64,000 nt of DNA, taken from contig NZ_CP013342.1 of the NCBI RefSeq assembly GCF_001610975.1, positions 248,001 through 312,000 of the forward strand, in the 5' to 3' direction. The first letter of the stretch is position 1. Every line of letters begins with the position of its first letter. Position numbers and translations under genes: made by a program. The notes under the pieces are model-generated. The model ran no database searches and had not been told where the DNA came from. It worked only from the letters and a program-made list of their open reading frames with translations. The DNA comes from Sphingopyxis terrae subsp. terrae NBRC 15098. Its GTDB lineage: Bacteria > Pseudomonadota > Alphaproteobacteria > Sphingomonadales > Sphingomonadaceae. This document shows, one piece after another, positions 2,231 to 26,703 of the stretch.

Positions 2231-2252
2231 CGCCCCGCTCCCCCTTTCCTCC
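2231..2252 (-). repeat. Purine-rich intergenic tract, copy 1
   Basis: In the minus (transcript) sense this reads GGAGGAAAGGGGGAGCGGGG plus CG. It lies between the gene ending at 2299 and the GHKL gene starting at 2188. A C-rich segment just upstream in the transcript (2260-2273, CGCCCGCTTCCCCT) could pair with it, leaving GGAGGA in the loop. One of eight similar tracts in the island. Confidence 0.6.
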
Positions 2253-2298
2253 TAGCCCAGGGGAAGCGGGCGCATGGGCCCGTCATCAGGGGCCCCGC

Positions 2299-2781
2299 TT
2301 ATCGGCTTCGGCGAATGGCTCGCTCAGCCTCGGTTTCGACATAGACCTGTTGTGAGCGACCGCGGCGGCGCTTGCGGATGCGGCCATCGACATGGGCCTC
2401 GGCCCAGCGCCGCGCCTCGGCGGCGCGCATGCCCATCGCGCATTCGTCGGCTTGCTCGAAGATCGTGTAGGCAAGCGCATATTGCTCGCGCTCGGGAAGA
2501 GCGAGCAGGGCCGAAGCGACCGGCAGAAGCCCCTCGTAGAATTCGAGAACATGGCGGCCGCCGCCATGGTGCATCAATATGGCGAGGCGGCCCTTCTTGC
2601 CGATGCCGGTCGGCCTTGCGATCATCACATTGTGCGAGGCATAGGTGACGCCGGCGCTGCAGCCGTCGGGTTCCGTCGGATAGTAGACGCGATCATCGCG
2701 CGCCGGCAGTGGGTGGGCGATGATATCGTAGCCGTCGAACGTTTCGACCTTTCGTATGTGATTATGTCCGATAACGCTCAT
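2299..2781 (-). CDS. Hypothetical island backbone protein
   Basis: 160 residues from an ATG at 2781 (MSVIGHNHIRKVETFDG), preceded by a purine-rich AAAGAAAGGG. A longer frame begins 23 codons upstream, but that start would lie next to the stop of the preceding gene and add a poorly structured leader. A central segment (GRLAILMHHGGGRHVLEFYEGLL) looks like a beta-strand followed by a Gly-rich turn. The C-terminus is very basic (GRIRKRRRGRSQQ), suggesting nucleic-acid contact. No family recognised. It is a member of the collinear minus-strand backbone run. Confidence 0.7.
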   Translation of the reverse strand: MSVIGHNHIRKVETFDGYDIIAHPLPARDDRVYYPTEPDGCSAGVTYASHNVMIARPTGIGKKGRLAILMHHGGGRHVLEFYEGLLPVASALLALPEREQYALAYTIFEQADECAMGMRAAEARRWAEAHVDGRIRKRRRGRSQQVYVETEAERAIRRSR

Positions 2782-2849
2782 TTCAGACCCTTTCTTTTTG
2801 GGTGGCTTCAGGACGAGGTTGCAGGTTTCGTGGACTCGGCCGACCGACA

Positions 2850-3311
2850 TCAGGCGGCGCGTAAATTGTCGCCCTGACGCAGACCGAGGTCGAAGGCCGT
2901 GAGAATGTCGAGGTTGGCCTCAAGGCGATCGAACGCGGCCGTGAGGTCCGCGATTTGGATCCAGACGCACGCATCGCCTGGGTCATGGTCGAGCTCGAAT
3001 ACGATCGGCACCGAGTCCGCTGTCATCTCGGGGAAGATCGAGCGGATGATCAGCAATTCGATCCTGCGGCTGAGCGCCCCGATGCGCGGCGCGAGGGCCG
3101 CACGTTCGACGGGGCTCATCATCAAATAGCGCTCGGGCGCTACGATGGGCGCCATGCGAACACATGCGATCCGCCCCGCAATCTTGGGCGCAGCGGACGC
3201 ACCGCCGATCATGCGTCGTTCTGCCGCGACGCCGTCGGCGGGGACCAGGACGCGGTAGATATAATGGGGCGGCGTCCCCGCGAGGCGGGAACGGGAGACA
3301 ATGATTTCCAT
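2850..3311 (-). CDS. Hypothetical island backbone protein
   Basis: 153 residues, starting MEIIVSRSRLAGTPPHYIYRVLV. The chosen ATG has a strong GAGGAG nine bases upstream and lies 11 bases after the stop of the preceding gene (3323), so the two are probably translated from one transcript. A longer frame reads upstream through the neighbour's coding sequence and is rejected as a shadow. The protein has an alternating hydrophobic N-terminal half and an acidic C-terminus (VFELDHDPGDACVWIQIADLTAAFDRLE). No signal peptide, membrane segment or known motif was seen. Function unknown. Confidence 0.72.
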   Translation of the reverse strand: MEIIVSRSRLAGTPPHYIYRVLVPADGVAAERRMIGGASAAPKIAGRIACVRMAPIVAPERYLMMSPVERAALAPRIGALSRRIELLIIRSIFPEMTADSVPIVFELDHDPGDACVWIQIADLTAAFDRLEANLDILTAFDLGLRQGDNLRAA

Positions 3312-3322
3312 CGATTTGCTCC

Positions 3323-3967
3323 TCAGGCAACGAGCCGCAGGGGCGGCGATCCGGGGTTGGGGAGATGGAGGTCGCGGCGGATGCGCGCCGCCAGGCGATC
3401 GGGCTCGAGCAGTTCGCCAATGGCGGCCCAATGATTGCGGTCGCCGCAATAGTCTCGTCGACCTGCGACACGGCGAAACATCACCTCGCGGCCGGACCCG
3501 ATGCCGAGGCCGAGCTGGACATAGATGCCTTCGCCATGAAGGACGATCTCGCCGCTGACCGCGATGCCGCCCTTGTTCGAGCGCAGGTCGTAGCTTCCGT
3601 CGGCGAGGCAAAGCGCGTCGGCGAGGCGCTTCAGCGCCTTCCGGCCATCGCTATGGAAGAGCTTCTTGGCCTGCTCGTCATAGCTGACGCCCTTTTGCGC
3701 GAGCACCGCGAGGGCGGATTTGCCTCGCATGTCGGCAATCCGGTCCATGCAGGCGCGGCGAAGCAGACTGTCACCCTCGCCCAAGTCTCTCGCGATGGCG
3801 CCGAGATGGCGTGCCAGCAAAATCACGGCGGGATCGAGATCGTCGGACTTGCCCGCGTTCCGGCAATCCGTGATCGCGGCGGTCAGCGCGTGGAGACAGG
3901 CGGGAAGCGTCGACAGCCCCGAGGGATCGAGCGCTTGCTGAAATCGGAACGCGATATCGTAAGCCAT
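3323..3967 (-). CDS. Hypothetical island backbone protein
   Basis: 214 residues from MAYDIAFRFQQALDPSGL. AGGAG lies about eight bases before this ATG; an in-frame ATG ten codons upstream is less well placed. The N-terminal half is helical with Cys residues (ACLHALTAAITDCRNAG; RRACMDRIADMRG). The C-terminal half is Gly-rich and strand-like (GIAVSGEIVLHGEGIYVQLGLG) and includes YCGDRNHW. No known domain identified. It is followed closely by the gene ending at 2850. Confidence 0.72.
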   Translation of the reverse strand: MAYDIAFRFQQALDPSGLSTLPACLHALTAAITDCRNAGKSDDLDPAVILLARHLGAIARDLGEGDSLLRRACMDRIADMRGKSALAVLAQKGVSYDEQAKKLFHSDGRKALKRLADALCLADGSYDLRSNKGGIAVSGEIVLHGEGIYVQLGLGIGSGREVMFRRVAGRRDYCGDRNHWAAIGELLEPDRLAARIRRDLHLPNPGSPPLRLVA

Positions 3968-4003
3968 GGGATAGGCTCCTGCCTTCGGGCGCCCCATCGC
4001 GCC

Positions 4004-4029
4004 CGCCCCTGCCCATCCCCCTCTCCTCC
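4004..4029 (-). repeat. Purine-rich intergenic tract, copy 2
   Basis: Minus-strand core GGAGGAGAGGGGGATGGGC followed by AGGGGCG. It fills the gap between the stop at 4034 and the start at 3967. The core differs from copy 1 at only one or two bases although the flanks are unrelated. Confidence 0.6.
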
Positions 4030-4033
4030 GGCT

Positions 4034-4842: not shown

Positions 4843-4873
4843 GTTCGGATTCCTTGGCGTTCGTGCTGGTCGC

Positions 4874-5350
4874 TCATTTCTGCGATAGGTGGATGTCCAG
4901 GGCCTGGCGGAGCAGGTCGTCGCGCGCGCCATTGACGATGATCGCATCGGGATTGGTCGCCAGGACCGCACTGATGATCGTGTCGGCCGGGCGCTTACGC
5001 AGCGGGTACTGGAAGATCTGACCACGCTCGATCGTAACGACAAAGGTGCGCATCAGCCGCTTCAATCGGCGGCGTTCGAGTTCGCGGGCAAGGAGATCGC
5101 CGACTTCGACCTCGAGGTCATGATCGTAGGTGAACTTGCCGAAGGACTGCTGCGGCCGGTTCGCGACCAGCCATTGGTTGACTTCCATCTCGGTCCAGCG
5201 GCCGACCTTATGGAAGAAGTCAGCGCCGCCCGTCCCTTGGTTGCGGGCATGGAAGGCCAGTTCGCCATCGATATAGACGTCGGCCGTGTAGGCGCTGGTT
5301 TCCTGCGACAGCGCAGCATTATAGGTGATGCGGCGAAGTTCGATTTTCAT
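4874..5350 (-). CDS. Hypothetical island backbone protein
   Basis: 158 residues, MKIELRRITYNAALSQETSAYTADVYIDGELAF, with a near-perfect AGGAGG ten bases before the ATG. The N-terminal 60 residues look like a beta sheet with a conserved-looking DVYIDGELAFHARNQGTGG turn. A basic helix follows (ARELERRRLKRLMR), and the end is helical (ARDDLLRQALDIHLSQ). No enzyme motif recognised. It is the first gene after purine tract copy 3 in the transcript direction. Confidence 0.7.
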   Translation of the reverse strand: MKIELRRITYNAALSQETSAYTADVYIDGELAFHARNQGTGGADFFHKVGRWTEMEVNQWLVANRPQQSFGKFTYDHDLEVEVGDLLARELERRRLKRLMRTFVVTIERGQIFQYPLRKRPADTIISAVLATNPDAIIVNGARDDLLRQALDIHLSQK

Positions 5351-5385
5351 GGGTAGTATACCTCCTGAGTTGGACGATCACCCGA

Positions 5386-5404
5386 GCCCCTCTCCCTCTT
5401 CTCC
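5386..5404 (-). repeat. Purine-rich intergenic tract, copy 3
   Basis: Minus-strand reading GGAGAAGAGGGAGAGGGGC, about 35 bases upstream of the start at 5350. It is the most diverged of the clear copies: the G5 run is split by an A. Confidence 0.45.
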
Positions 5405-5489
5405 ATGCAGCGACCACGATGGCTGCGCTGTCGGTCGCTGTTTGTCGGGAATTTCAGGCCGTGCTGGAGTATCGAGCCTGGGCTCAATT

Positions 5490-5726: not shown

Positions 5727-5788
5727 GAGCTTTCTCCGTGAACGAGTAGATTTGGGCAGTCGTCGCCGCCGATCACTGAAAGGACCGC

Positions 5789-6637
5789 CTAGGCAGCGAG
5801 GTCGAGGAGCGGGAGCGCTGTGACGTCGCCTCCGGTCGCCGCCCGGTCTAGGATGGGATAAGGCAGGCTCGGCACCTTGCGCGCGGCGATCCGGACCGCC
5901 CTCGTCAAGGGAAAGAGATAGGCGTGGCAGCCAGGATGGCGGCGCCGTGTCAAAAAGCCGGTGTGTTCTAGGCTGGCGAGCCATTCGCCACGGTCCTCAC
6001 CGAGGCGCGGCGCGCGGGCACCGGCTCGGATCAAATCCTCCATCGCATATCTCTGACCGCATTCGGCATTGCGGATCTTGGATATTGCCCGCGACGATAT
6101 GGGGCGCCCATCGGGAAGGATGAGGTCAACGCGCGGGCTTGATCGGCCGGTGTAGCGACTTCCCATCACCGCGTAGAGGCCGCCGACATGGCCAGGAAGG
6201 AACACGTGTCCGTCTGCATCGACGCGCCTGACCGGGTCGGCATAGGATATGACCGACAGAATCTCGGGTTTCTGGCGGCGGAGCAGCCGGAACGCCCGTG
6301 CCGCCAGGAACGATTCCGAATTGGCGCCCTGACTGTCGAGTATGACGAGACGTCCAAGGTCGCACGCCGCGCGCGGATCGCCGAGGCCCGCCGTTTTCGG
6401 AGCGCTTGCATTATTGACCGGGTGCGAGAAGACGCAAACGCCCACGAGTTCCGATCGTCCGCCGCGGCCATTGGCGAAGAGGCCGACCGAGAGCCGTGCG
6501 ACCGGCATCGCCCCCGCATAATGATGTTCCCTGACGAACGGCGCGGCCTCACGCCGGGTATCGATTATATCGACGGACAGGGTTCCGGGGTCGATCTCCC
6601 AGTGCCCGGCACCCAGCGGCACCGGCGCTCGCGCCAC
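5789..6637 (-). CDS. Mom-like GNAT acyltransferase (putative DNA-adenine modification)
   Basis: About 282 residues from a GTG at 6637; this start is uncertain because no good Shine-Dalgarno is seen and the frame continues upstream inside the preceding gene. The order VREHHYAG, CDLGRLVILD, ESFLAARAFRLLRRQKP, ISYADP, GHVGGLYAVMGSRYTGRS, LPDGR and SKIRNAECGQ matches, from memory, the layout of phage Mu Mom and related proteins. Known: Mom is a GNAT-fold enzyme that converts adenine in DNA to a carbamoylmethyl derivative, protecting phage DNA from restriction. Inferred here: self-DNA modification or anti-restriction for the element. The C-terminal 80 residues (winged-helix-like GEWLASLEHTGFLTRRRHPGCHAYLF) fit the longer Mom-like proteins. 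Confidence 0.62.
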   Translation of the reverse strand: MARAPVPLGAGHWEIDPGTLSVDIIDTRREAAPFVREHHYAGAMPVARLSVGLFANGRGGRSELVGVCVFSHPVNNASAPKTAGLGDPRAACDLGRLVILDSQGANSESFLAARAFRLLRRQKPEILSVISYADPVRRVDADGHVFLPGHVGGLYAVMGSRYTGRSSPRVDLILPDGRPISSRAISKIRNAECGQRYAMEDLIRAGARAPRLGEDRGEWLASLEHTGFLTRRRHPGCHAYLFPLTRAVRIAARKVPSLPYPILDRAATGGDVTALPLLDLAA

Positions 6638-6656
6638 CGCTGGGTCCGGTCGGTGA

Positions 6657-7046
6657 TCATTCGGGATCGCCCGCGCCGTCGTCGGTGGATTTGACTGCGG
6701 CCGTCCGAGAAAGGTCGGGAATGCGCGGGTCGTTGTAGATGCTGTCGAGCGACAGCGAGAGCGCGCGGTGCTGGGCGCCTTCGGGCGTCGAAGCGTCGAT
6801 CGTGAAGACCTCGGTCGCGAAGCGGTCATCGCCGCTATAGAAATCGACGTCGACGACATAGGTGACGATATCTGCCGGAGCGGTCGGCGACAGTGACTTG
6901 TCGAGCAGGTCGATGACGGTGGATCGCAGACCGTCGATATCAGGATCGAAATCTTCCCACGTCACATGGTCGGGGCATTCATCGACGAGATAGTTGGACA
7001 TGAGATCCTGCATCGTCTCAAGCAGCGTGTGGCGTGCGTCGGCCAT
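6657..7046 (-). CDS. Hypothetical acidic backbone protein
   Basis: 129 residues, MADARHTLLETMQDLMSNYLVDECPDHVTWEDFDPD, with GGAGGA eight bases upstream. It is strongly acidic throughout. A central strand pattern (ADIVTYVVDVDFYSGDDRFATEVFTIDA) suggests an antiparallel sheet. No known family. Its stop lies near the likely start of the Mom-like gene. A strong hairpin separates it from the DUF932 gene upstream. Confidence 0.7.
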   Translation of the reverse strand: MADARHTLLETMQDLMSNYLVDECPDHVTWEDFDPDIDGLRSTVIDLLDKSLSPTAPADIVTYVVDVDFYSGDDRFATEVFTIDASTPEGAQHRALSLSLDSIYNDPRIPDLSRTAAVKSTDDGAGDPE

Positions 7047-7062
7047 GGTTTTCCTCCTTCGG

Positions 7063-7095: not shown

Positions 7096-7103
7096 GCAGA
7101 ATG

Positions 7104-8297
7104 TCAGTGGACGGCTTCGAGGAGCTTGCGGGCCTTGCTCTCGATATCGAGCCTGCTGTCCTGGTGGGTCTTGGTACGGGCGAAGGCGGTGATGCCCTGC
7201 ACGAAGTCGTAGATGCTCTCGGGCGGGCGGCCTTCCTCGCCCAGCACCGTCGCGACAATCTTGGCGGACTCGGCCTTCGAGAAGCCCCGCTTGCGCAGAA
7301 AGTCCTCGCGATCTTCGTCCTTCCGGGCGACGATGCGTTCACGCGCGGTTTTGACGCCACTGACGAAGCGCATCGGCGAGGAGTCCGCGAAACGCTCGAG
7401 CGCCGGCGCGGCTTCGTGCGCGAAGCGGTTGGCAGCGAATTTCGAGTGCCGGATCTTGACCTCCTCGAAATTCTCCACGCCCCAGAGGTTCCGGTTCATG
7501 CAGACGGCGCGGAGATAGAAGGTCGCCATGCCGAGCGTCTTCGCGCCGACCTCAGAGTTCCAGGTGTAGAAGCCGCGGAAGTAGAGATCGGGCTCGCCGT
7601 TCGGAAGCTTGCCCGCCTCGATCGGGTGCGTGTCATCGACCAGAAAAAGAAAGACATCGCGGTCCGAGGCATAAAGCGTGGTCGTGTCGCGGCTGACATC
7701 GACATAGGGATTATAGTACATGTTCGACCAGTCGAGCACGCCCGGAACCTTCCACCGCGTCTGCCCGACGCCGTCGCCGGCGATCTTCATCACCGCGGCG
7801 ACGAGTTCGTGATCGAATATCCGGCCATAGTCAGGACCGGTGGCAGCGCGTAATTCGTTCCGACCATCGTGGGTCTGGTAGAGTTTGACCTGCTCGGCCC
7901 GGTGCGCGACGAGCCCGTGCTGGAGGTTGATCCCCGCGAGCGCCGCAGGCAGTTCGCGCAGATAGGATGCGGGCGCACTGACAAGGCTGCAAAGCTGTCC
8001 GAACGACCAGTTGGTCGGGGCAACGGGCCGTTCTTCACCGGGAACGATGAGCGAGAGGCGTTCGGGGCTGTCGCTGCGCGCCTCGACGCGAATCTCCTTG
8101 CTATCCACGACGCGCGCCGTGGAGCGGTCGGCGCGGGTACGAACGGCCGCGTAAAGCTCGGTCAGCGAAAGATAGCGCTCATCGTCGGGCCGCGAGAACC
8201 ATTCAGAAGATACGCGCCCGATATTTCGGCCGCGGGAAATATCGACACGATAGGCGCCGGAAACGGGATGATCGGTCGTGGGTGCAAGCGTGGCCAT
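7104..8297 (-). CDS. DUF932 family phage/plasmid-like protein
   Basis: 397 residues. Strand-rich central region with LRAATGPDYGRIFDHELVAAVMKIAG, YASDRDVFLFLVDDTHPIEAG, GFYTWNSEVGAKTLGMATFYLRAVCMNRNLWG and a basic C-terminal helical part, which is the typical DUF932 (phage/plasmid-like protein) layout. The ATG has AGGAGA about eight bases upstream. Members are common on phages, plasmids and integrative elements beside ParB, helicase and primase genes; their biochemical role is not established. Here it ends the left backbone block and is followed by a strong hairpin. Confidence 0.85.
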   Translation of the reverse strand: MATLAPTTDHPVSGAYRVDISRGRNIGRVSSEWFSRPDDERYLSLTELYAAVRTRADRSTARVVDSKEIRVEARSDSPERLSLIVPGEERPVAPTNWSFGQLCSLVSAPASYLRELPAALAGINLQHGLVAHRAEQVKLYQTHDGRNELRAATGPDYGRIFDHELVAAVMKIAGDGVGQTRWKVPGVLDWSNMYYNPYVDVSRDTTTLYASDRDVFLFLVDDTHPIEAGKLPNGEPDLYFRGFYTWNSEVGAKTLGMATFYLRAVCMNRNLWGVENFEEVKIRHSKFAANRFAHEAAPALERFADSSPMRFVSGVKTARERIVARKDEDREDFLRKRGFSKAESAKIVATVLGEEGRPPESIYDFVQGITAFARTKTHQDSRLDIESKARKLLEAVH

Positions 8298-8605
8298 GGT
8301 GGCTCTCCTTGATTGGCTGGGTTACGCAGAAGGCCGATCAGCCTTCGGACGCACTCCGCCCTCACCCCCTTTCCACCTCTGAAGCAGGGAAGCCGACGAT
8401 CAGTCCAGACGGTCGAGATCGATCCGAATTCAGGATAGAGCGTCATTCGATGCCGGGGCGGTAAAGTGGCCGTTCCCGCTGCCACCGCCAAACGGTCAAG
8501 CTGGTCAATCGCTCACGGGGCTGCTTTTGAAGCAATTCTGACCGGTTGCGGTCGTGCAGCTTTTATCTAGCCAGCATCGAGAAGCAGACTTTCCGGGACT
8601 GAGCG
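8298..8605. other. Intergenic gap at the backbone/cargo junction
   Basis: 308 bases between the DUF932 start and the end of the LysR gene. The part nearest DUF932 carries its ribosome-binding site and a purine tract. The rest (8430-8605) is less GC-rich than the flanks and holds no convincing gene. I place the left border of the cargo here, without a visible direct repeat. Confidence 0.5.
8357..8378 (-). repeat. Purine-rich intergenic tract, copy 4
   Basis: Minus-strand core AGGTGGAAAGGGGGTGAGGG plus CG, in the leader of the DUF932 gene. A C-rich stretch just upstream in the transcript (GGCTTCCCTGCTTC, about 8381-8394) could pair with the G run, as at copy 1. Confidence 0.55.
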
Positions 8606-9538: not shown

Positions 9539-9539
9539 T

Positions 9540-14636: not shown

Positions 14637-14637
14637 T

Positions 14638-17138: not shown

Positions 17139-17140
17139 TG

Positions 17141-17722
17141 TCAGTCGTCGAGTGTTTGGGCGACACGCACGACACGATCGACATCGTCTTGATTGCCCCT
17201 TAGGAGGTCGATCGGCCGCGCGTCGCCCAGACCGTCGTCGCCGCTCACCAGATACTGGAGGACCGCCCAGCCGCTCGCCCCGGGTGCAGCACCGAGAACG
17301 CGGGGAATCGCCGGGAGGATGGCATTGCCATCGAACTGGAATGCCGGAAACAGCTTGGCACCATTGTCATCGATCATGAGGAGGCGACGGTCCCGGGCGG
17401 CCTTGTAGACGGCCTGCACTGTCTTGTGTCCGAGCAGATTGCGAACTGCTTCGGCATCGAAAGCTCCACCTGCGGCTTCGATCAGTCGCCGTTTGAAGGC
17501 GATGGCCCGGGTAATCTCTTCCGCCTGTTCCGGATCGCCGGCTTCGACCGACGGAATGCCGCGCGCGATATTCAGGACAAGCGCGGGGACGTCGATGCTG
17601 CCAATCGCCGCCGTCTTGGCGGCAGCTGGCATCATCTTGATGATCCGGTCGGCGCTTGCCAGGATGCGGTCACGCAGGATGCGATCTACATCGATAGCGG
17701 CCATACTGGCTGTGCGAGACAT
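17141..17722 (-). CDS. Xre/MbcA/ParS-type antitoxin
   Basis: 193 residues. The C-terminus (GASGWAVLQYLVSGDDGLGD, ARPIDLLRG, VDRVVRVAQTLDD) is the DUF2384-type toxin-binding region, which blocks the RES active site in known complexes. The middle (FDAEAVRNLLGHKTVQAVYKAARDRRLL) fits the helix-turn-helix portion. The N-terminal 80 residues are a helical extension. GGAG lies upstream of the ATG. It is cotranscribed with the RES gene and probably represses their common promoter in the AT-richer 17,723-17,806 gap. Confidence 0.85.
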   Translation of the reverse strand: MSRTASMAAIDVDRILRDRILASADRIIKMMPAAAKTAAIGSIDVPALVLNIARGIPSVEAGDPEQAEEITRAIAFKRRLIEAAGGAFDAEAVRNLLGHKTVQAVYKAARDRRLLMIDDNGAKLFPAFQFDGNAILPAIPRVLGAAPGASGWAVLQYLVSGDDGLGDARPIDLLRGNQDDVDRVVRVAQTLDD

Positions 17723-17806: not shown

Positions 17807-18805
17807 TCAAACATGGACGTCGACGGACGTCGTGCCATCACGCTGGCTCCGTGGCCTTGGCGGCTGCCGCTTCAACTCGCTGGGAGTAGCAGTAAACACC
17901 GTCCAGTCGCCGTAGTAGACCCCGTCATGCTCGACATAATCGTTGAAGATGGTGAGGCGCCAATCGCACAGCGGGCCGACGACGTTCGACAATCCTCGCG
18001 CCCGCCAATCGGACATCACCGCCGGGAAGTAGCGGTCCATCACTTCAGGTGTGGCAGCAAATTTGACGTCACACATATAGGTGGTGTGGACATAAGCGAG
18101 CGGCCCGATGACGGGTCCATCACTGCCCCAGTCTTCGAGGTTCTCATCGGGATCTTTGCGACCATGATAGAGGTGGAGATAGAGTTGCGGAACATCCGGG
18201 GCGACGGCTTCGGCTCTTGGCATCGTATCACCGGTCTCATTCGCTTCGCGGGCGGCAATCCAGTCCAGATAGCCGAGACGCGTGTCATCGTTTGAGATCT
18301 CGTATTTCCAGTCGGCTAACGGATGACCGGCGCGGCGGCTCCACGGTCCCTGCTCTTCCGGCGCGGAAGCGATCGAAATCGGAGGCGGAACGAATGCGGC
18401 AATTTCGAACCAGGCGTCGGCCGCGGCTATGGATCCGAGCCCATTCAACTCGGTCCGGCTCATGAGAACATGGTCCGACCCGTTGGTGTCGAAATATAGC
18501 GGATCGCCCTCGCCGGTATAGACGGCACGCTGAGCGCTGAACGCGCCGACACACGGATCCGAATTGCGAACAAAAGGAATGCCGTGGTGGGTGCAGAAAT
18601 CCTCGACCTGATCGAATTGCCCGCCAACCAGGCCATGGGCGCAGATTTCGAGGGCTTGGCCATCGACAATGTGGGACGCATCGACGGTCGCTCCAACCCA
18701 GTCGAGCATTCCATGGTCGCACGCTATGGCGTCGATCAGCGGCTCGATCAGATCGCTCCTGATCGCCCCGCCGATCCGAATGATCGCGGATGCACGGTCT
18801 GTCAT
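17807..18805 (-). CDS. Hypothetical backbone protein
   Basis: 332 residues from the ATG at 18805 (MTDRASAIIRIGGAIRSDLIEPLIDAI), which has GGAGG ten bases upstream; an ATG four codons earlier overlaps that site. The N-terminal third contains strand-helix alternation with DASHIVDGQALEICAHGLVGG. The remainder is acidic and Trp/Tyr-rich (DWRARGLSNVVGPLCDWRLT; EHDGVYYGDWTVF). No catalytic motif or membrane segment seen and no family recognised. It is transcribed with the SNO2 block upstream and lies on the inner edge of the cargo. Confidence 0.7.
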   Translation of the reverse strand: MTDRASAIIRIGGAIRSDLIEPLIDAIACDHGMLDWVGATVDASHIVDGQALEICAHGLVGGQFDQVEDFCTHHGIPFVRNSDPCVGAFSAQRAVYTGEGDPLYFDTNGSDHVLMSRTELNGLGSIAAADAWFEIAAFVPPPISIASAPEEQGPWSRRAGHPLADWKYEISNDDTRLGYLDWIAAREANETGDTMPRAEAVAPDVPQLYLHLYHGRKDPDENLEDWGSDGPVIGPLAYVHTTYMCDVKFAATPEVMDRYFPAVMSDWRARGLSNVVGPLCDWRLTIFNDYVEHDGVYYGDWTVFTATPSELKRQPPRPRSQRDGTTSVDVHV

Positions 18806-18855
18806 GGGAACCTCCATCGTCTCGATGGCCCTGCGGACAATTCCGCCGCCACACC

Positions 18856-18885
18856 GAGCCCCCCCCCACTCCCCCCTTTTCGCCT
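18856..18885 (-). repeat. Purine-rich intergenic tract, copy 5
   Basis: Minus-strand core AGGCGAAAAGGGGGGAGTGG followed by a further run of Gs. It lies 50 bases upstream of the start at 18805. The G runs are the longest of the set. Confidence 0.55.
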
Positions 18886-19248: not shown

Positions 19249-22200
19249 TCACTGCGGCCGCTCGGCGATGATCGCGGCGAGGACCTCGTCGGCCTTCTCG
19301 ACAGGCAGGAAGAGCCGCGTCTTGTACTGGATCACCTCGCTGAACAGACCGCGCGCCTTCAGCCATTCGCGGTCCTGTGGCTGGAAATCCCGGACCTCGA
19401 AGCGCCGGCTACTGTTCACCATCGTGGAAACGAGGCGCGCGCCATGGAGGCCCGGGATCAGTGCGCCATCGCCGCCACGCGCCGCCTCGATCAGTTCATC
19501 GGGCGTGAGTTTGATCGAGGACTCAAGACCGAAGGCGGACTCCAGTTTCTCGAGCGCGGTGGGCATCACGATGCGTCCGAGGATGGACGTTCCCGCCGCG
19601 TCATCGATCCGCCAGACGCGGACATCGTCTTGCGGCAGCTTGTTCCAGACGGGCAAAAGGAGGCCGGTCGCGACGCTGATCGTGTCAATATCGACCTTAT
19701 CGAGCGCTTCGGACACCTCTGCTTCCCAGAAGCTTTTGAAGCTATCGTGATCGACCTCTTTCCAGAAGGTGTGCCAAAGTTCGGCGAGTTGGATACGATT
19801 GGAACCCGTCGGCCGGACAAGCTCCAGCATCTTGACGGGGCGCCCCTCGTCGTCGGTGATCGACCAGGATGGAACGCAAACGGCGACGCGCCCCGAACGG
19901 CTGTTCCGCAGATATCGCACGTCGTCGGAGCTTCCCCAGATCTTGTCGAGGCGCGTCCATCCGGTGACGTGCGGCTTCAGATGAAGCTCGAGGCGGAGCA
20001 AACGCGTTTCGGCGCCGGATACCGGGTCTTTCCTGAGCACGCGCTCCGAGATCTGAACGATACGCTCGGCCCGGATCGCTTCGACGCCGAGGTCGAGCGT
20101 TCCGGCTTCGCGCGCTGCGTCGACGCGGGCCTGTATGAGCCCCATATATTCCTCGAAAACCGCGTTCTGGGTCGCGATCCTGAGCGCGAGGATGCGGTTG
20201 AGCCAGCGCTGGATCGGCGGCAGCTTGTCGAGCAAGGTGCCATGCTCATCGACAAGCTTCAGGCCTGTGATGATCTGGAATTTCTCGAGGCTGACGCTCG
20301 CGAGCTTGCCGGCGTGGAGGAGGTGATACCACTGGGTCAGGGCCTCGCGGGCATAGCTGCTTTCGAGATTATCGGCGGGATCGAACAGGTTCTGGCCGCC
20401 TGTCTGGCGTTGGCCGCGCGTGAGCGCGCCCAGCGTGTCGAGACGGCGCGCGATCGTGCTGATAAAGCGGCGTTCACCCTTGCAGTTGGTCGTGACCGGG
20501 CGGAACACCGGCGGCATGGATTGGTAGGTGCGGTGGGTGCGACCGAGGCCCTGGATCGCGATGTCGGCGCGCCATCCGGGTTCGAGCAGGAAGTGGATGC
20601 GCCGCTTGCGCGCGGTCGGGCAGTCCAGGTCAGCGTGGTAGGACCGCCCCGTGCCACCCGCCTCGGAAAAGACGAGGATGGGCTTTCGCCCCGACATGAA
20701 GTTGTCGGTCTCGGCGATGTTGGAACTGGACGTGCGACGCTCGACCTTCTGCCGGCCCTGCCCATCAACGACAATCCGCCGCGTGCGCCCCGTGACCTCG
20801 GAAACCATGTCGGTGCCGAAATGTACGATGAGAAAGTCGAGCGCAGCCGGAACAGGCGGCATCGAGCAGAGCCGCTCGATCAAATCGTCGCGCGCGGCGA
20901 CCGCTTCCTGGCACAGGACACCGTTGCCGTCGTCATCGAGCATTGGCTCGGAGCGCATTGACCCATCGGTCGCGCGAAAGGCGCGCATTTGCCGGGTTGG
21001 GAAGGCGGTCTTCAGATAATCGACCATGGTGTCGAGTGGGGAGACATCGATCGAGAGGTTCGCCCGTTCTTCGGGTGACAGGTCAGCCAGGCGGCGGTCG
21101 AGTATTGCCTCGGCGGTACTGGTGAGCTGAACGACGGCGACATGGCCCGCGGCGAGTTCATCCTCGATCGCGCGAACGAGCGTCGGCATCTTCATCGCGA
21201 TCAGGACCTGCGAGAAGAACCGCTGCTTCGCGCTTTCGAACCGGCTCAGCGCCGATCCCTTGGCCTGGGCGTTCATCGTCTGCCCCGAAATGCGGTCGAC
21301 GATGTTCGACGCCTTCAGAACCTCGTCGAGGTTCTGGTGAATGATCGCCCATGCATCGGCATAGGCGTCGTAGATGTCGATCTGGTCCGGCGTGAGCTGA
21401 TGCTCGAGCGGGTCATATTCGACGCCGGCGAAACTGAGCGCCCGGGCGGTGTAGAGACCCATGGACTTGAGATCGCGGGCGACGATTTCCATCGCGGCGA
21501 TGCCGCCGTCGGTCATCGCGGCGAGAAAGCCGTCGCGATTGGCAAACGCCGTACCGGGACCCCAGAGCCCGAGCCGCGACGCGTAACTCAAATTTTCGGG
21601 CTTGGTGGCGCCGGTCGCCGATTCATAGACAACGCGGGCGCGCGGCAGCGCATTTTGCAGGCGGACCCCGGCGAGGCCCTGCTCGGATCCCTTGGCTTGC
21701 CGGTACTCGTCCTTGGTCCCGGCGGCGTTGCCCATCGAATGGGATTCATCGAAGAGGATCACGCCTTCGAACCCGGCGCCCGTCCACTCGAGAATCTGCT
21801 GCAGGCGCGAGCATTGGTCGTGGCGCTGGGACCGGAGCGTCGCATAGGTGAGGAAGAGGATGCCACTCGCCATGCCGATCGGCTGACCAAGCGGAAAGGC
21901 GTCGAGCGGCTGGACGTCGATTGGAAGCCCGCCGAGCGCGCTCCAGTCGCGCCGGGCATCTTCGAGGAGCGTCGCGCCCTTCGAGATCCACATGGCGCGC
22001 TGATTGCCGCAGTTCCATTGGTCCCGGATAATTGCGGCGCCTTCACGGCCCTTGCCGACGCCCGTCCCGTCCCCGATGAAGAAGCCCATGCGATAGGGGC
22101 GGCCTTCGGGGTCCTCGATCAGCAAGTCGCCTGCCGTGTTGGTGACGAACCGGCCCGAGAGGTCGCGCGAGAAGGCATCGCCTGCGTAAATGATCGCTTC

Positions 22201-23544
22201 GAGCTGGGCGTCTGACAGCGCCTCGCTTGCCCGCTTCTGGAAAAGCGGGCGATATTGGGGGATCGGGGGCAGAACCGACGCCATGGCGAGCGATTCCACG
22301 AGATCGTCGGGGTGGGGCTTCGCGCCTGGAATATCGATGCGGGCGAGCCGCCAAGGCGCATAGATACCGACCGGATCGCCGACAGGGAGCGGCGCGTCGC
22401 GGACCGAATAGGCGAGCGGCTGCGCTAGATCATCGGTCGCGGCGATCCGCGAGGGTGCGATGATCCTGGGGCCAGCGAGGCCGGAGAAGAGTGAGGACGA
22501 CGAAGGCCTCAGCGCGGGACGCATCGGGATTACCGCCGGGGACGCCGGGGGCGGTTCGTCGGATGGGTCAAGCCGCGCCGGAGCCGCGAGCACGATGGGC
22601 AGCGCCGCCGCGATGGTGTCGACCGTGTGGCGCTCGGTTTGGCCGATCCAGCCCTTGTCGAAGACGATCAGGCGGACGGCGACGCTGGTGCCATGCTTCG
22701 CATAGGGACGGCCGAGAATCGTGATCTCGACGCGCGGGCGGGCAATTTCGGCGACGGAGACATAGCCGCTCGCGCCGCTCGCATCGTGCGCGAAGGTCGG
22801 CGACATGATCGCGACGCAGCGTCCGCCCTCGGCAAGACGCAGCAGCGCGGAGCGAAGATGGCGCGCTCCGGCATGGCGATCTTGGCCGCGCCCCTCGCTG
22901 CGGCTGAAGGGCGGGTTGATCAGGACAATTGTCGGCCGAACATCCGTCGGCAGCCGGTCGTTGATGAACTCGGCGTCATGGGTCGTGACTGGGCGGCCCG
23001 TCACGAGGGAAAGCAGCGCCGCCCGGCAGGGATCGCGCTCGTTGAGCGAAGCGCTCGCGCCCGCGGCGATCGCGCGCGCCGCAAGCATGCCGGTACCTGC
23101 CGACGGTTCGAGCACATGATCGCCAGCAGTGACCGCCGCCGCTCGGGCCGCGAGCCAGGACAGCGCCGCCGGCGTGCTGAACTGCTGCATATCGACCTGG
23201 TGCTCGCTGCGATAGGTCTGGGTCGGCAGCGCCTTCTCGAACGCGAGGATATCCGCGAATTCGTCTTCGGGCCCCCAGTCCGGGTTCGGGTCATCATCGG
23301 GCACGAGCGTGTCCGATGCCTGCGCGGCTTCGAGCGCGTCATAGGCATCGCGCATCGACCAGCGCCCGTCGGCATCGGAGCCGCGGAACGCTTCCACCAT
23401 CAGGCGCTTGAGCAGCGAGCGGGTCACGGATTGCGGATCGGCGAGCCGGTCGCGCAGTGCGCGGGCGACGCCATAAAGGCGTTCGGCTTTTTCCCGGGCC
23501 TCGGTGCCCGGGGTTTCAGCGAGCTTCAGAAGCGGAAGGGTCAT
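19249..23544 (-). CDS. Strawberry-notch-like helicase fused to an N6-methyltransferase-like domain
   Basis: 1,431 residues from the ATG at 23544 (AGGAGA upstream); 11 extra codons upstream are unlikely. Residues about 120-330 hold a methyltransferase-like fold: HVLEPSAGTGMLAARA (motif I, about 146-160) and LINPPFSRSEG (NPPF about 210-213). The helicase part begins around residue 485 with GDGTGVGKGR as Walker A-like site and VILFDESHSMG (about residue 600) as DExH box. The C-terminal helicase segment contains GGTGRSYHADLDCPTARKRR and IQGLGRTHRTYQSMPP. Known: this architecture occurs widely on plasmids, phages and integrative elements, function unproven. Inferred: DNA remodelling with self-DNA marking, possibly in replication or anti-defence. 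Confidence 0.88.
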   Translation of the reverse strand: MTLPLLKLAETPGTEAREKAERLYGVARALRDRLADPQSVTRSLLKRLMVEAFRGSDADGRWSMRDAYDALEAAQASDTLVPDDDPNPDWGPEDEFADILAFEKALPTQTYRSEHQVDMQQFSTPAALSWLAARAAAVTAGDHVLEPSAGTGMLAARAIAAGASASLNERDPCRAALLSLVTGRPVTTHDAEFINDRLPTDVRPTIVLINPPFSRSEGRGQDRHAGARHLRSALLRLAEGGRCVAIMSPTFAHDASGASGYVSVAEIARPRVEITILGRPYAKHGTSVAVRLIVFDKGWIGQTERHTVDTIAAALPIVLAAPARLDPSDEPPPASPAVIPMRPALRPSSSSLFSGLAGPRIIAPSRIAATDDLAQPLAYSVRDAPLPVGDPVGIYAPWRLARIDIPGAKPHPDDLVESLAMASVLPPIPQYRPLFQKRASEALSDAQLEAIIYAGDAFSRDLSGRFVTNTAGDLLIEDPEGRPYRMGFFIGDGTGVGKGREGAAIIRDQWNCGNQRAMWISKGATLLEDARRDWSALGGLPIDVQPLDAFPLGQPIGMASGILFLTYATLRSQRHDQCSRLQQILEWTGAGFEGVILFDESHSMGNAAGTKDEYRQAKGSEQGLAGVRLQNALPRARVVYESATGATKPENLSYASRLGLWGPGTAFANRDGFLAAMTDGGIAAMEIVARDLKSMGLYTARALSFAGVEYDPLEHQLTPDQIDIYDAYADAWAIIHQNLDEVLKASNIVDRISGQTMNAQAKGSALSRFESAKQRFFSQVLIAMKMPTLVRAIEDELAAGHVAVVQLTSTAEAILDRRLADLSPEERANLSIDVSPLDTMVDYLKTAFPTRQMRAFRATDGSMRSEPMLDDDGNGVLCQEAVAARDDLIERLCSMPPVPAALDFLIVHFGTDMVSEVTGRTRRIVVDGQGRQKVERRTSSSNIAETDNFMSGRKPILVFSEAGGTGRSYHADLDCPTARKRRIHFLLEPGWRADIAIQGLGRTHRTYQSMPPVFRPVTTNCKGERRFISTIARRLDTLGALTRGQRQTGGQNLFDPADNLESSYAREALTQWYHLLHAGKLASVSLEKFQIITGLKLVDEHGTLLDKLPPIQRWLNRILALRIATQNAVFEEYMGLIQARVDAAREAGTLDLGVEAIRAERIVQISERVLRKDPVSGAETRLLRLELHLKPHVTGWTRLDKIWGSSDDVRYLRNSRSGRVAVCVPSWSITDDEGRPVKMLELVRPTGSNRIQLAELWHTFWKEVDHDSFKSFWEAEVSEALDKVDIDTISVATGLLLPVWNKLPQDDVRVWRIDDAAGTSILGRIVMPTALEKLESAFGLESSIKLTPDELIEAARGGDGALIPGLHGARLVSTMVNSSRRFEVRDFQPQDREWLKARGLFSEVIQYKTRLFLPVEKADEVLAAIIAERPQ

Positions 23545-23591
23545 GGCAATTCTCCTGAAGAGGTTCGGGAGCAACACGCCCCCGCTGCCAT

Positions 23592-23612
23592 CGCCCCTCC
23601 CCCTCTCCTCCC
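23592..23612 (-). repeat. Purine-rich intergenic tract, copy 6
   Basis: Minus-strand core GGGAGGAGAGGGGGAGGGGC plus G, about 50 bases upstream of the SNO2 start. A C-rich GCCCCCATTCC just before it in the transcript (23617-23627) can pair with the G runs, echoing copy 1. Confidence 0.6.
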
Positions 23613-23682
23613 GACTGGAATGGGGGCATAAGAAAAGGGGCCGCGGCGCAGGACCGCGACCCCATAAAATCGAAGAGCGAGA

Positions 23683-25701
23683 TTAGGCCGCGTCGGAGAG
23701 CGGCTCGTCCTCGTGGGTATCATCGGCGGGATCGCCCGCCGCCTCGGGTTCGACGGTGCCGCTCGTTTCGTCTTCGCCATCATCGTTCACCGGCTCGGCG
23801 ACCGGATGCTCGAAGCGCATGGCGTCAGGCAGCCAGGCAAGCGCCTTTTCCTTGACGTCCGCCTCGACGATGATGTTCCCGGCGAAGAGCTGTTCAGCCG
23901 AAGAGGCGAGCAGGTTCTTCTTCGACGCCCCGTAGCGCTGGCTGAGCTCGCTGCCGCCGATCTCCTGAAAGAGGTCGATGATGGAGCTCTTGGTGAGCCG
24001 CTTGAAATAATTCTTCGCGGTCGGGCGCCACCAGGCGGCGACATCGATCTTGAGCTTGCGACCGAGATGATCGACGAAACCGCTGGCGGAATCTTTCATG
24101 GGCACCGCATGGATCGTCCGGGCGATCGCCCAAGCGAGCCAAGCCGCACGCGCTTCTTCGCCGAGCGCGCAGAAGGCATCGTAGCGCCCGGCGACGCCGA
24201 TGTTCGGCTGGACCCAGCTTCGATCGAGCCCCTCTTCGAGCTTGGCCCATTCGTCAGCCGCGAGCGATCCGCTTTCGAAGCCAATGACACGCGACGGCGC
24301 GGCATCGGCGCGAAGGTCGCTGGCGAGATCGGAAGCGTAGCGCCGTAAAGCCGCATCGACCATCACGAAGGTTCCGAGATCGAGCGCAAAGCGGGGATCG
24401 CTTGCGACATGGACACGAAGCAGTTCCGCCTTCATCGTTGCGAGCTCGTCGATGAGTCGTTGGCTCATTGCCGGTTTCGCCGAGACAGAGCCGTCGGTCT
24501 CGGCGTCGCTATCATCGTCGCCATCGATGTCTTCGTCGGCCTCGGTCGGCACCATGTAGGCCTGATGGTGCACACGCGGCTGGCCATCTTCGCCGATGAC
24601 GAGGAAGGCAAGTGCCGCGGCCTTTTGGTCGTCGGTCAAGACCGCCGGTCGATTCTGGATGCCGCTCAGTTCGGATTCAAGTTCGCGATACCGCTGTTCC
24701 TCGTCCTCGGTGATGCCGTCATCACTCTCGTCGGCAGATTCGGCGATCATGTTCATCTCAGCTTCGATTTCGGCGCAGCGCGCTACCTCCTCTGCGGTCG
24801 GTTCAGGAATCTCGCCGCGGACCGGGCGGAGGCCATCATAATCCGCGAACGAGATGCGCGTCATCGGGACCGCGCGAATTTCCGCGAAGCCCTCGCGCGC
24901 CCGGATCGCTTCGGCTTCCGCAGCCAGCTTCTCATCAGCGAGGCGGTCGAGGACGTCGCCATCGATCCAGTTCTCGGATGCACTGTCGGAAAAGAGGTCA
25001 GAGTCGATCCGCCCGCCCGCCTCGACATAGGCATCGCGGCCGACGAGCAGCGCTTTCGGGTCGCCGCCCCGGTAGCTGCCGGCGGCGAGCTCACGCCGGA
25101 TGGTGTACGGGTCGTTGCGGTAATAGCTGTCGCGATATTGCTCGAAGACGCGGGATTGGCGAGCCGTATCCGAGGTGCTGCCATAGGCCTTTGCAATTTC
25201 GAGGGTGATTTCGCCCTTGCGCAGCGCATCGAAGATCGTCTCGTGGAGATCGGCGAGACGGACGCGGCCGAGCACGAAGCGCTCGGTTTTGCCGAAGCGC
25301 GCCGCGACCTGGGCCGCAGTCTTGTCCTCCTTCTCGATCATGTTCTTGAACGCCATGCACTCGTCCGCGGCGGTCATCGGGAGCTTGTTATTCTCGGCGT
25401 AGCTGAACTCGATGGCACGCTTCGCGTCCGGCATCACCATGACCGGAATCTTGAAGTCGTCCGGGAGCCGCCCCTTTTCGATCAGGACGTGCACGCGCTC
25501 GAGGCGCCGACCGCCGCCGAAGATGCTGTAGTGGTCCTTCTTGCGCTTGACTGCCGTACCAATCAAATTCTGGAGCACGAAGCCGGCCTCGCCGATCATC
25601 GCCTCCAGTTCTGCGTCGGCATCGGGATCGCTTTCGGTCCTGACGTTGAGCGGCGAAGGGACGCAGTTGCGCGCAGGCGCGTATACGATGGGAAATGACA
25701 T
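23683..25701 (-). CDS. ParB/RepB/Spo0J-like partition or regulatory protein
   Basis: 672 residues from the ATG at 25701 (AGGAG upstream). The N-terminal 200 residues match the ParB/Srx domain and following helix-turn-helix: LVQNLIGTAVKRKK-like strand (LQNLIGTAVKRKKDHYSIFG), GGGRRLERVHVLIEKG, IEFSYAENNKLPMTAADEC, then TAAQVAARFGKTERFVLGRVRLADL. The central part has a strongly acidic linker (EADEDIDGDDDSDAETD) and the C-terminus is acidic. It is about twice the length of chromosomal ParB, typical of the large ParB-like proteins beside SNO2 helicases on mobile elements. No ParA partner is visible, so a role in replication or regulation is as likely as segregation. Confidence 0.85.
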   Translation of the reverse strand: MSFPIVYAPARNCVPSPLNVRTESDPDADAELEAMIGEAGFVLQNLIGTAVKRKKDHYSIFGGGRRLERVHVLIEKGRLPDDFKIPVMVMPDAKRAIEFSYAENNKLPMTAADECMAFKNMIEKEDKTAAQVAARFGKTERFVLGRVRLADLHETIFDALRKGEITLEIAKAYGSTSDTARQSRVFEQYRDSYYRNDPYTIRRELAAGSYRGGDPKALLVGRDAYVEAGGRIDSDLFSDSASENWIDGDVLDRLADEKLAAEAEAIRAREGFAEIRAVPMTRISFADYDGLRPVRGEIPEPTAEEVARCAEIEAEMNMIAESADESDDGITEDEEQRYRELESELSGIQNRPAVLTDDQKAAALAFLVIGEDGQPRVHHQAYMVPTEADEDIDGDDDSDAETDGSVSAKPAMSQRLIDELATMKAELLRVHVASDPRFALDLGTFVMVDAALRRYASDLASDLRADAAPSRVIGFESGSLAADEWAKLEEGLDRSWVQPNIGVAGRYDAFCALGEEARAAWLAWAIARTIHAVPMKDSASGFVDHLGRKLKIDVAAWWRPTAKNYFKRLTKSSIIDLFQEIGGSELSQRYGASKKNLLASSAEQLFAGNIIVEADVKEKALAWLPDAMRFEHPVAEPVNDDGEDETSGTVEPEAAGDPADDTHEDEPLSDAA

Positions 25702-25733
25702 AATCAGTCTCCTGGCGGCGGAAGCCCGACCAT

Positions 25734-26666
25734 TCAGGCCGCTCGGCGCCGCCAGTCCCCCACTCCCTTCCCTCCTTGCCTGAGGACATCGTTCCAGTCG
25801 TTTCGGCCGTTCCATGGCCAGATCGTATCGATGCGTCGTCCGGGCACCGCGTGCGCCTTCACGGCGAGCGGCACGGCGAGGCGGCCGGCACGGTCGTTGT
25901 CGGGCAACAGGATGAGACGCGACACCGATTCTGGAATAGTAATTTGTGGGATGCGCTCATTGCCGAGTGCGGCCCAGACCGGGATGCCGAGGAGGATCAT
26001 CGCCGAGATCGCTGTCTCGACGCCCTCGGCAATTCCGAGTGTATAAGCGGCCGGCGCGAGTCGAACCGCACCTGTGCGGGGGTGACCGAGCAATCTGCGA
26101 GGGTGCCGGAGGTCGCGCGCGCGTCGGCCCCTGCCATCAAGGAAGGTCCGTTGGACGGCCAACAATCCCGAGTCATCGGTTACCGCGGCGAGCATCGCCG
26201 GTCGAAACACGGCCAGTCGGCCCTTGCCGAGAGGCGTTCGGGGAGCGAACCGCAGGCAGTTAGGTGCAATATCGATCGACCTGTTCCGCAAATAGGTCTC
26301 CGCGATTGTCCAGTTTATTGGCCGACCAATGCCCCACAGGTCACGGGCACGCTGCTGTAGCCATTCTTTAGGGAGGGAGGATGGCGCCCCCCTGCCGTCA
26401 CGTGCGTCGAGGGCGTTCAGACCGTCGCGGCGAAGCGCCCGGAGCACATCGGAAATATCGCAGCCGGCAAAGCATTTGAACAAAAGTCGTGTTTCGCCAA
26501 TCCTGACCGACAGGCTCGGGGTTTTATCCTCATGAGCAGGGCAGCGGCACATGCCAGAATCGCCAGACCAAGTCCCGCCGAAGCGGCGCACAAGAACGGC
26601 CCCGGCGACTTCGAGTTCTGGCTTGCGAGACGTTGAAAACCCTGCAGGCATGGCGAGCCTCTTCAT
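25734..26666 (-). CDS. Zinc-finger/Toprim primase-like protein
   Basis: About 310 residues from an ATG at 26666; a second ATG six codons downstream with AGAGG before it is also possible. CRCPAHEDKTPSL with KCFAGC forms a CHC2-type zinc ribbon near the N-terminus. TLGIAEGVETAISA and LILLPDNDRAG supply the Toprim Glu and Asp-x-Asp. The central part (RNRSIDIAPNCLRFAPRTPLG) is typical of the Toprim proteins of mobile elements. Expected role: primer synthesis for element replication. The last residues (GGKGVGDWRRRAA) are encoded by purine tract copy 7. It lies 32 bases upstream of the ParB-like gene. Confidence 0.85.
   Translation of the reverse strand: MKRLAMPAGFSTSRKPELEVAGAVLVRRFGGTWSGDSGMCRCPAHEDKTPSLSVRIGETRLLFKCFAGCDISDVLRALRRDGLNALDARDGRGAPSSLPKEWLQQRARDLWGIGRPINWTIAETYLRNRSIDIAPNCLRFAPRTPLGKGRLAVFRPAMLAAVTDDSGLLAVQRTFLDGRGRRARDLRHPRRLLGHPRTGAVRLAPAAYTLGIAEGVETAISAMILLGIPVWAALGNERIPQITIPESVSRLILLPDNDRAGRLAVPLAVKAHAVPGRRIDTIWPWNGRNDWNDVLRQGGKGVGDWRRRAA
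25755..25777 (-). repeat. Purine-rich tract, copy 7, inside the primase 3' end
   Basis: Minus-strand core AAGGAGGGAAGGGAGTGGGG plus GAC, 55 bases upstream of the ParB-like start. Unlike the others it lies in the last codons of the upstream gene, yet sits at a similar distance from the next start. Confidence 0.5.
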
Positions 26667-26683
26667 CAGGACGGATACGCAAT

Positions 26684-26703
26684 AACCCCCTCTTTTCCTC
26701 CTC
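26684..26703 (-). repeat. Purine-rich intergenic tract, copy 8
   Basis: Minus-strand core GAGGAGGAAAAGAGGGGGTT, about 20 bases upstream of the primase start. It is the first copy in the backbone transcript direction. Confidence 0.5.

Follow-up and report, generated by a model that had tools for sequence, protein, structure and literature searches.

Why do eight gene leaders of a single genomic island share nearly the same purine-rich tract? The island lies in a 64,000-nucleotide stretch of the genome of Sphingopyxis terrae subsp. terrae NBRC 15098 (contig NZ_CP013342.1, positions 248,001 to 312,000, here called the window; positions marked C1 refer to contig 1 of the genome), and its genes include those of an SNO2 helicase, a ParB-like protein and a Toprim protein. 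We propose that conjugative elements of the Alphaproteobacteria carry a dispersed, cis-acting leader RNA and that the tracts mark its 5′ part, a reading to which we assign a probability of roughly 0.55. That the leaders form a family at the RNA level is highly probable; that the job of this family is regulated translation is, judged from sequence, slightly better than an even bet.

The original prediction had placed eight same-strand tracts before gene starts. All eight are present at their coordinates on the minus strand, which is the coding strand of the genes behind them, 32–59 bases from the start codon; the start codons are our choice, and nearer in-frame starts exist for the tracts at 4004 and 26684. 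The tracts and the hairpins found near them are listed below with the distance to the start, the rank by a position weight matrix (PWM), the matches to two covariance models (R2 and R3, described further on) and the z-score of the leader fold.

2231..2252, minus strand: purine tract, 42 bases before the HATPase-like gene 503-2188; PWM rank 3 of 57; R3 match 2186-2253; the tract is also the 3′ arm of an upstream C-rich hairpin.
4004..4029, minus strand: purine tract, 36 bases before the 214-aa gene 3323-3967; PWM rank 1 of 57; R3 rank 27 of 30.
3986..4005, minus strand: hairpin CGGGCGC/GCGCCCG between tract and Shine-Dalgarno (SD) sequence in the 214-aa leader; fold z −3.78.
5386..5404, minus strand: purine tract, 35 bases before the 158-aa gene 4874-5350; PWM rank 4; R3 match 5348-5400; fold z +0.99, hairpin unsupported.
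8357..8378, minus strand: diverged purine tract, 59 bases before the DUF932-like gene 7104-8297, whose DUF932 assignment scores below the Pfam cut-off; PWM rank 9; R3 match 8295-8371.
8324..8353, minus strand: hairpin between tract and SD in the DUF932 leader; fold z −1.95.
18856..18885, minus strand: diverged, G-rich purine tract, 38 bases before the 336-aa gene 17807-18817; PWM rank 6; absent from the 30 R3 matches.
23592..23612, minus strand: purine tract, 47 bases before the SNO2 helicase gene 19249-23544; PWM rank 2; R2 match E 0.027; R3 rank 2.
23567..23583, minus strand: possible hairpin GGGGGCGTGTTGCTCCC before the SNO2 SD, seen in one fold, with which the fold of a slightly different stretch disagrees; z −1.11.
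25755..25777, minus strand: purine tract, 53 bases before the ParB-HTH gene 23683-25701; PWM rank 5; R3 rank 1, 19.8 bits.
25712..25755, minus strand: two-part ParB hairpin, its outer stem CTGGCGGCG/CGCCGCCAG touching the SD GAG; supported by folds and by covariation in 7 homologous leaders.
26684..26703, minus strand: purine tract, 32 bases before the Toprim/DUF7146 gene 25734-26651; PWM rank 7; R3 rank 6; fold z +1.75, hairpin unsupported.

The remaining window leaders have fold z-scores of −1.7 (ParB), −0.9 (HATPase) and −0.2 (336 aa). The 16-position PWM was trained on 49 non-redundant SNO2, ParB and toprim leaders of distant relatives only (loci L018–L044), which avoids circularity. When the window's 57 usable gene leaders are ranked in this out-of-sample way, the eight tract leaders come 1–7 and 9 (Mann-Whitney p = 3.9e-6). 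Rank 8 belongs to a gene in the right, chromosomal half, and the 14 other minus-strand genes below position 28,300 all score below 0. The tract class is real, and the observation that raised the question is confirmed.

Across the 3.98-Mb genome, the exact 14-base consensus RGAGGRRAGRGGGM occurs five times, against once for its reversed control: three sites are in the window, one is about 3 kb outside it in the same island, and the fifth, at one end of contig 1, is about 6 kb away from a different SNO2 gene. A looser pattern, GGAGGARAGGGGG with one mismatch, gives 11 matches versus 9 for its reversed control and is not specific, so that the weaker copies (8357, 18856 and 26684) rest on their position and context and on relatives. 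Two more leader matches lie just outside the window: the one at C1:244,875 precedes a DUF736 gene by 56 bases, and the other, near C1:247,722, precedes a 325-aa gene by 104. The genome holds two more SNO2 islands (C1:6006-10184 and C1:3,863,334-3,867,509), whose tract leaders are of the other sphingomonad type.

The tract recurs before the same genes in relatives. A match to SNO2 was found in 57 of 149 genomes of the family, and the relatives' SNO2, ParB and toprim homologues (about 37–65% identity) are preceded by the same tract; for the 214-aa gene, eight of eight homologous leaders score at least 10 bits. An expectation–maximization search (16-position motifs, eight seeds, 57 of 77 leaders kept after redundancy removal) returned RGAGGRRAGGGGGC, with A3, G4, A8 and G9 at 95–98% and position 5 at 81% G; its presence in 56 of the 57 leaders is a training figure. 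Over 48 sphingomonad loci (1.09 Mb) the motif has 127 matches and the reversed motif 67, of which 27 fall in leaders. The 127 divide into 64 intergenic matches in the leaders of training genes, 3 more that overlap the preceding gene, 30 in the leaders of other genes and 30 elsewhere, several of the last preceding toprim genes whose start was called too far downstream. Thus, 94 of 127 are intergenic and lie no more than 130 bases before a start on the same strand, with training genes accounting for 64. In loci with a called SNO2 gene, all 28 non-training leader matches are on the SNO2 strand, compared with a 632:330 split for other genes. SNO2, ParB, toprim and DUF932 genes stand behind the tract in the window, with DUF736 just outside; elsewhere these are SNO2, ParB, ArdC, DUF932, antirestriction and radC genes. 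The tract-to-start distance is 27–104 bases in 67 non-redundant leaders.

These numbers bear on the idea that the tracts are a G-quadruplex or a compositional accident of GC-rich intergenic DNA. Four GG runs occur in 31 of the 67 leaders (and in 15 of 44 leaders of the Rhizobiales type described below), the loose pattern occurs about as often as its reversed form, and the purine-rich reversed motif also turns up in leaders (27 of 67). Four GGG runs, however, occur in only one of the 67, and the motif fixes A at positions 3 (98%) and 8 (95%). Together with the out-of-sample ranking, the orientation and the covariation given next, this makes an accident or a G-quadruplex, the latter among the suggestions of the original prediction, hardly credible.

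Evidence for an RNA comes from a Rhizobiales-type form of the leader, which follows a common layout before SNO2 genes: GAGAGNGAGAGG, a two-part stem, an apical GAGAGAG loop, CUCUC, SD and AUG. In a plain MAFFT alignment of 16 SNO2-type leaders, two-sided changes are found in 12 of 24 pairs, none of 500 shuffles reaches the covariation score, and pairing drops from 82% to 46–56% when the partners are slid; the stem under test was drawn from single-sequence folds of the same 16 rows. RNAalifold on these leaders found only the apical GAGAG–CUCUC interaction. The pairs of a GAGAG–CUCUC pseudoknot before the SD are invariant and show no covariation, which neither supports nor excludes it. In SNO2-type leaders such as L104, L105 and L112, the apical GAGAGCG and the GAGAG of the 5′ tract are both complementary to the CGCUCUC before the SD; a pseudoknot or two exclusive folds are possible.

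A covariance model of the 16 leaders (R1) finds more copies before other genes, sphingomonad loci included. Its successor R2, built from 51 R1 matches, gives 87 matches in 34 loci (0.73 Mb), many of which are its own sources. Each of the 87 is followed by an open reading frame of at least 60 aa that starts at most 25 bases from the match end, and 86 end exactly in the start codon, a figure to be read with the SD and AUG being part of R2. By Pfam or sequence likeness, the genes behind these matches encode SNO2, ParB-like, ArdC, DUF932, Antirestrict, RadC and DUF6878 proteins and unknowns. From the 87, 44 ParB/ArdC/DUF932-type leaders were chosen by eye for the GUGACGGG form (alignment A3, one row trimmed), leaving out the SNO2-type rows and several others, e.g., both non-SNO2 rows of L096 and the antirestriction row of L094. 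With no structure supplied, A3 yields 16 consensus pairs, 11 of which have two-sided changes, and its outer stem ends directly at the SD GGAG. Of its cells, 94.7% pair, versus 35–48% when the partners are slid, and 49 cells are double changes, versus 12.5 in shuffles (0 of 500 shuffles). Among the stem wobbles, G.U is common and A.C rare (119 vs. 15, with 133.5 and 37 expected), suggesting that the fold is kept on the coding strand. The original prediction had named conserved paired columns with compensatory changes upstream of homologous genes as the supporting result, and such columns are present in both alignments and in the window-type ParB leader treated below. Among its proposals, the dispersed RNA element is the one supported: islands and plasmids that have diverged from one another show tract leaders in front of homologous genes, with covarying hairpins between tract and SD. 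One set of gene tables drawn up for the relatives omits genes truncated by the ends of a stretch and one overlapping gene of L096. Its hairpin with a C-rich partner just upstream of the tract is clear at 2231, moderate at 23592 and weak at 8357. As a conserved structure it was rejected, because by eye it is not kept at the relatives' DUF932 and HATPase leaders; the conserved hairpin is downstream of the tract.

Does the window form belong to the same family? Model R3, built from the 44 A3 copies, contains no window-type sequence. Run on window positions 1-30000 with filters off and both strands (30 matches at E ≤10), its six best matches are six of the eight tract leaders, and all six end at the start codon; with default filters over the full 64 kb, tract leaders are five of the top six, the remaining one being inside a called chromosomal gene. 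R2 gives a similar but weaker picture. Of the six, only the R3 match of ParB aligns through the helices, and that of DUF932 does so in part. The window-type ParB hairpin has its own support from the seven of 17 ParB leaders closest to the window's form (alignment A4): 5 of 12 pairs show two-sided changes, and shuffles equal the real alignment in 0 of 500 cases on the covariation score and 11 of 500 on pair types. A covarying stem fixed to gene starts is thus found for Rhizobiales-type leaders and, among window-type leaders, for ParB only. Plasmid pNL1 bridges the two forms: its ArdC leader is a strong R3 member (63 bits), and the leaders of its SNO2 and ParB genes have window-type tracts and match R2 weakly (25.4 and 26.8 bits, E 0.07 and 0.04). 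A common architecture of the window and Rhizobiales-type leaders is likely; strict homology of every copy is unproven.

Of 299 genomes taken from the phylum, 24 contain R3 members (E ≤0.001), each of them labelled as the same class or the same family; strong members also occur in other Rhodobacterales elements. For Rhodobacterales SNO2 leaders of the AAAGNGAAAGNGGGC type, and for a shared "TGAGCC" segment, the likeness was judged by eye only. In the Rhodobacterales SNO2 leaders of L100, L139, L140, L143, L144 and L149, the purine segment forms the 3′ side of a hairpin that resembles a terminator and has a T run, and a second, following hairpin seems to pair with the SD (TCCTTT/AAAGGA), with matching changes seen by eye in L146, L148 and L151.

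Several results weigh against a single structured leader RNA in the window and against a simple function for it. The six R3 window scores are low (10.9–19.8 bits) and come mainly from the tract and start site, and R3 over the whole genome of the strain returned one chromosomal match (E 6.8) and no island leader, with 150 of 3004 candidates scored in the first pass. Three of the eight window leaders (158 aa, toprim and 336 aa) fold no better than shuffles. The original prediction had held that homologous islands lacking the tracts at the same gaps would speak against it, and in window-type relatives this is partly so: 54 of 74 homologous leaders reach 10 bits and 20 of 74 fall below, in a survey whose start codons were picked by rule and in which L049 and L053 are one locus. 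The tract-poor leaders include those of SNO2 in S. laterariae, N. humi and pSA2 and several toprim leaders. Finally, predicted SD accessibility is 0.422 in the 67 tract leaders versus 0.400 in 548 others (p 0.26), and predicted start-site accessibility is 0.464 versus 0.415 (p 0.07). As SD accessibility is not lower, hiding of the SD is not shown, which counts against a simple off-switch.

At what level, then, would the leader act? We note that 15 of the 47 tracts with an upstream same-strand gene begin at most 10 bases from the stop codon of that gene. In 17 of 27 toprim leaders (L020, L022–L024, L026–L031, L035, L037–L039 and L042–L044), a GAACN7GAAC box, which we take to be the alphaproteobacterial LexA box, lies 84–107 bases before the start and upstream of the tract. 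Both positions put the tract inside the transcript, and the box suggests possible SOS control of toprim as first gene. SD pairing is stronger for tract genes (−9.1 vs. −7.7), their leaders are more structured than other leaders, and their start region is C-rich and G-poor: from −7 to +20 of the 67 leaders, G is avoided and C preferred, with position −2 being 1% G and 73% C, compared with 20% and 42% in others. Taken together, these features point to translation initiation. Tract and start region of the same leader pair at −13.96, versus −13.14 for swapped partners (p 0.002; the 67 leaders are of related families). When the tract is replaced by A's in silico, however, predicted accessibility falls for the SD (0.440 to 0.396) and rises for the start (0.470 to 0.531), so that a pairing of tract and start region is no more than a possibility.

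A rival reading is a passive ribosome standby site or extended SD, in which the tract would do no more than pair with the 16S rRNA 3′ end and so bring 30S subunits onto a structured start, with no dedicated regulator. The 67 sphingomonad tracts do pair with the 16S tail (its sequence taken from general knowledge) at −14.8 kcal/mol, versus −11.8 for shuffled tracts, and none of 50 shuffle sets is as low; the greater structure of tract-gene leaders also agrees with standby. However, 44 Rhizobiales-type tracts pair no better than shuffles (−10.3 vs. −10.6), so that simple standby does not explain the family, and the notion of the tract as an SD mimic throughout the family was rejected, as it holds for the sphingomonad tracts only. 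In our alignment, motif positions 4 (98% G) and 5 (81% G) would form G.U pairs against the 16S tail, and the restriction to a mobile gene set is left unexplained. Passive standby is therefore possible but, on balance, doubtful.

Alphaproteobacteria have small RNAs of an anti-SD type with CUCC-rich loops, and the tracts could be targets of such an antisense RNA. The sphingomonad tracts pair with CCUCCUCCC better than shuffles (−12.8 vs. −11.6), but the Rhizobiales-type tracts pair worse than shuffles, on which ground this candidate was rejected for the family; a candidate RNA was sought by eye only. We regard an antisense target as very improbable.

A signal in DNA has to be weighed for what kind of element this is. 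A TrwC-type relaxase and a type IV coupling protein are encoded 10–15 kb beyond the left edge of the window (L014:4017-9022, minus strand, which is C1:233,017-238,022), so that the island is probably, by its gene content, an integrative conjugative element. Its integrase is beside a tRNA-Leu, and a short blastn search for a repeat of the tRNA end, which would mark the outer island end, found nothing. The tagged genes point towards the transfer genes, and most do likewise in pNL1, a layout that should be expected of a leading region by analogy. The pNL1 record has 12 sense and 2 antisense pattern matches, and one sense match lies beyond the relaxase. In the conjugative plasmids described in PMC11541004, Frpo promoters hold their −35/−10 boxes in a DNA hairpin, and dispersed Frpo/ssi hairpins serve leading-region and anti-defence genes. 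The tracts could likewise be part of a single-stranded-DNA promoter, a primase or transfer signal on the entering strand, or a partition-like array. The strict co-orientation (28 to 0) on an element with relaxase and coupling protein fits such a signal, as does the resemblance of the tagged genes to those served by Frpo. On the other side, the many G.U and few A.C wobbles of the covarying stems would be many mismatches on the template strand, the tract is tied to start codons within 27–104 bases, and in toprim leaders it is downstream of the LexA-like box. The leader motif search (16-position motifs and eight seeds only) showed no −35/−10-like box. The tie to start codons and the scarcity of A.C beside G.U in the stems also speak against the partition or replication site of the original prediction. 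The parS-type array of ParB sites to which it likened the tracts is not supported either, since the motif is not palindromic and 94 of its 127 matches are leaders. A DNA-level element is thus improbable, and we keep to a leader RNA.

Among known systems, the nearest are the radC and STAXI motifs by gene context and the Frpo promoters by setting, as far as analogy goes. The radC RNA motif (Rfam RF01754) is a proteobacterial leader-type RNA that precedes radC and other mobile-element genes. Similarly, one SNO2-type leader here (L193) precedes a RadC gene; unlike the radC RNA, the leaders of L193, L196 and L190 have no RF01754 match at E ≤10. Nor did RF01754 match in 60 relatives, a search that gave no match in any control genome either. 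A hairpin beside the ribosome-binding site with a single-stranded stretch upstream is typical of translational operators and ribosome standby sites; the hairpin of the leaders here adjoins the ribosome-binding site in the same way, but the leader is copied before many genes of one mobile gene set and has a conserved tract. The radC motif is in the motif table of PMC2864571, which also describes STAXI as tandem pseudoknots near SSB, topoisomerase, antirestriction and integrase genes, possibly structured single-stranded DNA. The leader copies here differ from STAXI in being single, one per gene leader, with stem wobbles that favour RNA and no Rfam match. Like the Frpo/ssi hairpins, they are dispersed before comparable conjugative-element genes; unlike Frpo, the leader hairpin is tied to the SD and start codon and folds on the coding strand.

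Rfam 15 has no family at its gathering score on any leader in the sequence searched (the window and loci L094, L095, L097, L190, L194, L200, L086, L083, L080 and L084); its only matches above gathering are tRNA in the window and the ZTP riboswitch in L094, L095 and L097. Permissive searches gave sub-threshold matches only, e.g., mir-207 on SNO2 leaders (25–26 bits vs. 88) and ncS54 near 23630-23685 (23.8 vs. 43). The open-access literature searched holds no description of the leader, which is weak evidence of absence. We consider it highly probable that these leaders are a family of structured RNAs, which marks a single set of mobile genes in the manner of a regulon.

Other features of the island were observed alongside. 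An intrinsic-terminator-like GC hairpin followed by TTTTCTT lies between ParB and SNO2 (about 23,620-23,680, minus strand), just before the SNO2 tract, and similar T-run hairpins are visible in L046, L025/L063 and L049. A gene of the Mom family (5789-6859, minus strand; Pfam E 2.7e-20), presumably a DNA-modification anti-restriction family, is on the same island and has a leader without the tract. The cargo block holds a Type IIG-like restriction enzyme-methyltransferase (11766-14636, plus strand) near oxidoreductase, LysR-type and transposase genes. The RES-domain gene at 16551-17722 (minus strand) and its upstream neighbour are probably a toxin-antitoxin pair, and Fic and helix-turn-helix genes are found at 27188-28239.

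In the proposed mechanism, the leader would consist, 5′ to 3′, of the purine tract (sphingomonad RGAGGRRAGGGGGC or Rhizobiales-type GAGAGNGAGAGG), a variable linker or mini-hairpin, the main hairpin, the SD and AUG, with the outer stem of the main hairpin ending at or near the SD. It would act in the mRNA on translation initiation: the hairpin would border the ribosome-binding site, and the tract would serve as the docking point for the ribosome or for an RNA-binding factor common to the set, which may give the tagged anti-restriction, SNO2, ParB and primase-like genes a joint tuning. What the factor is, whether the effect is positive or negative and what triggers it (perhaps entry into a new host) is guesswork. 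More tentatively still, conjugative elements from no fewer than three alphaproteobacterial orders may have one RNA leader copied before their establishment genes (anti-restriction, SNO2/DarB-like, ParB, primase-like, DUF932 and DUF736) and so form a translational regulon: an RNA-binding factor, encoded by the element or by the host, would read the leader, and the proteins would be made together on cell entry. By analogy, this would do at the RNA level what single-stranded-DNA promoters do in the leading regions of enterobacterial elements.

If this is true, the establishment and anti-restriction genes of alphaproteobacterial plasmids and integrative elements would share a searchable RNA signature. 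The tract-bearing unknowns (the 158-, 214- and 336-aa genes and the HATPase-like gene) would become candidate establishment or counter-defence genes. It would also open to testing how establishment genes are turned on when the element enters a cell; for this class, the open-access literature searched describes no leading-region control.

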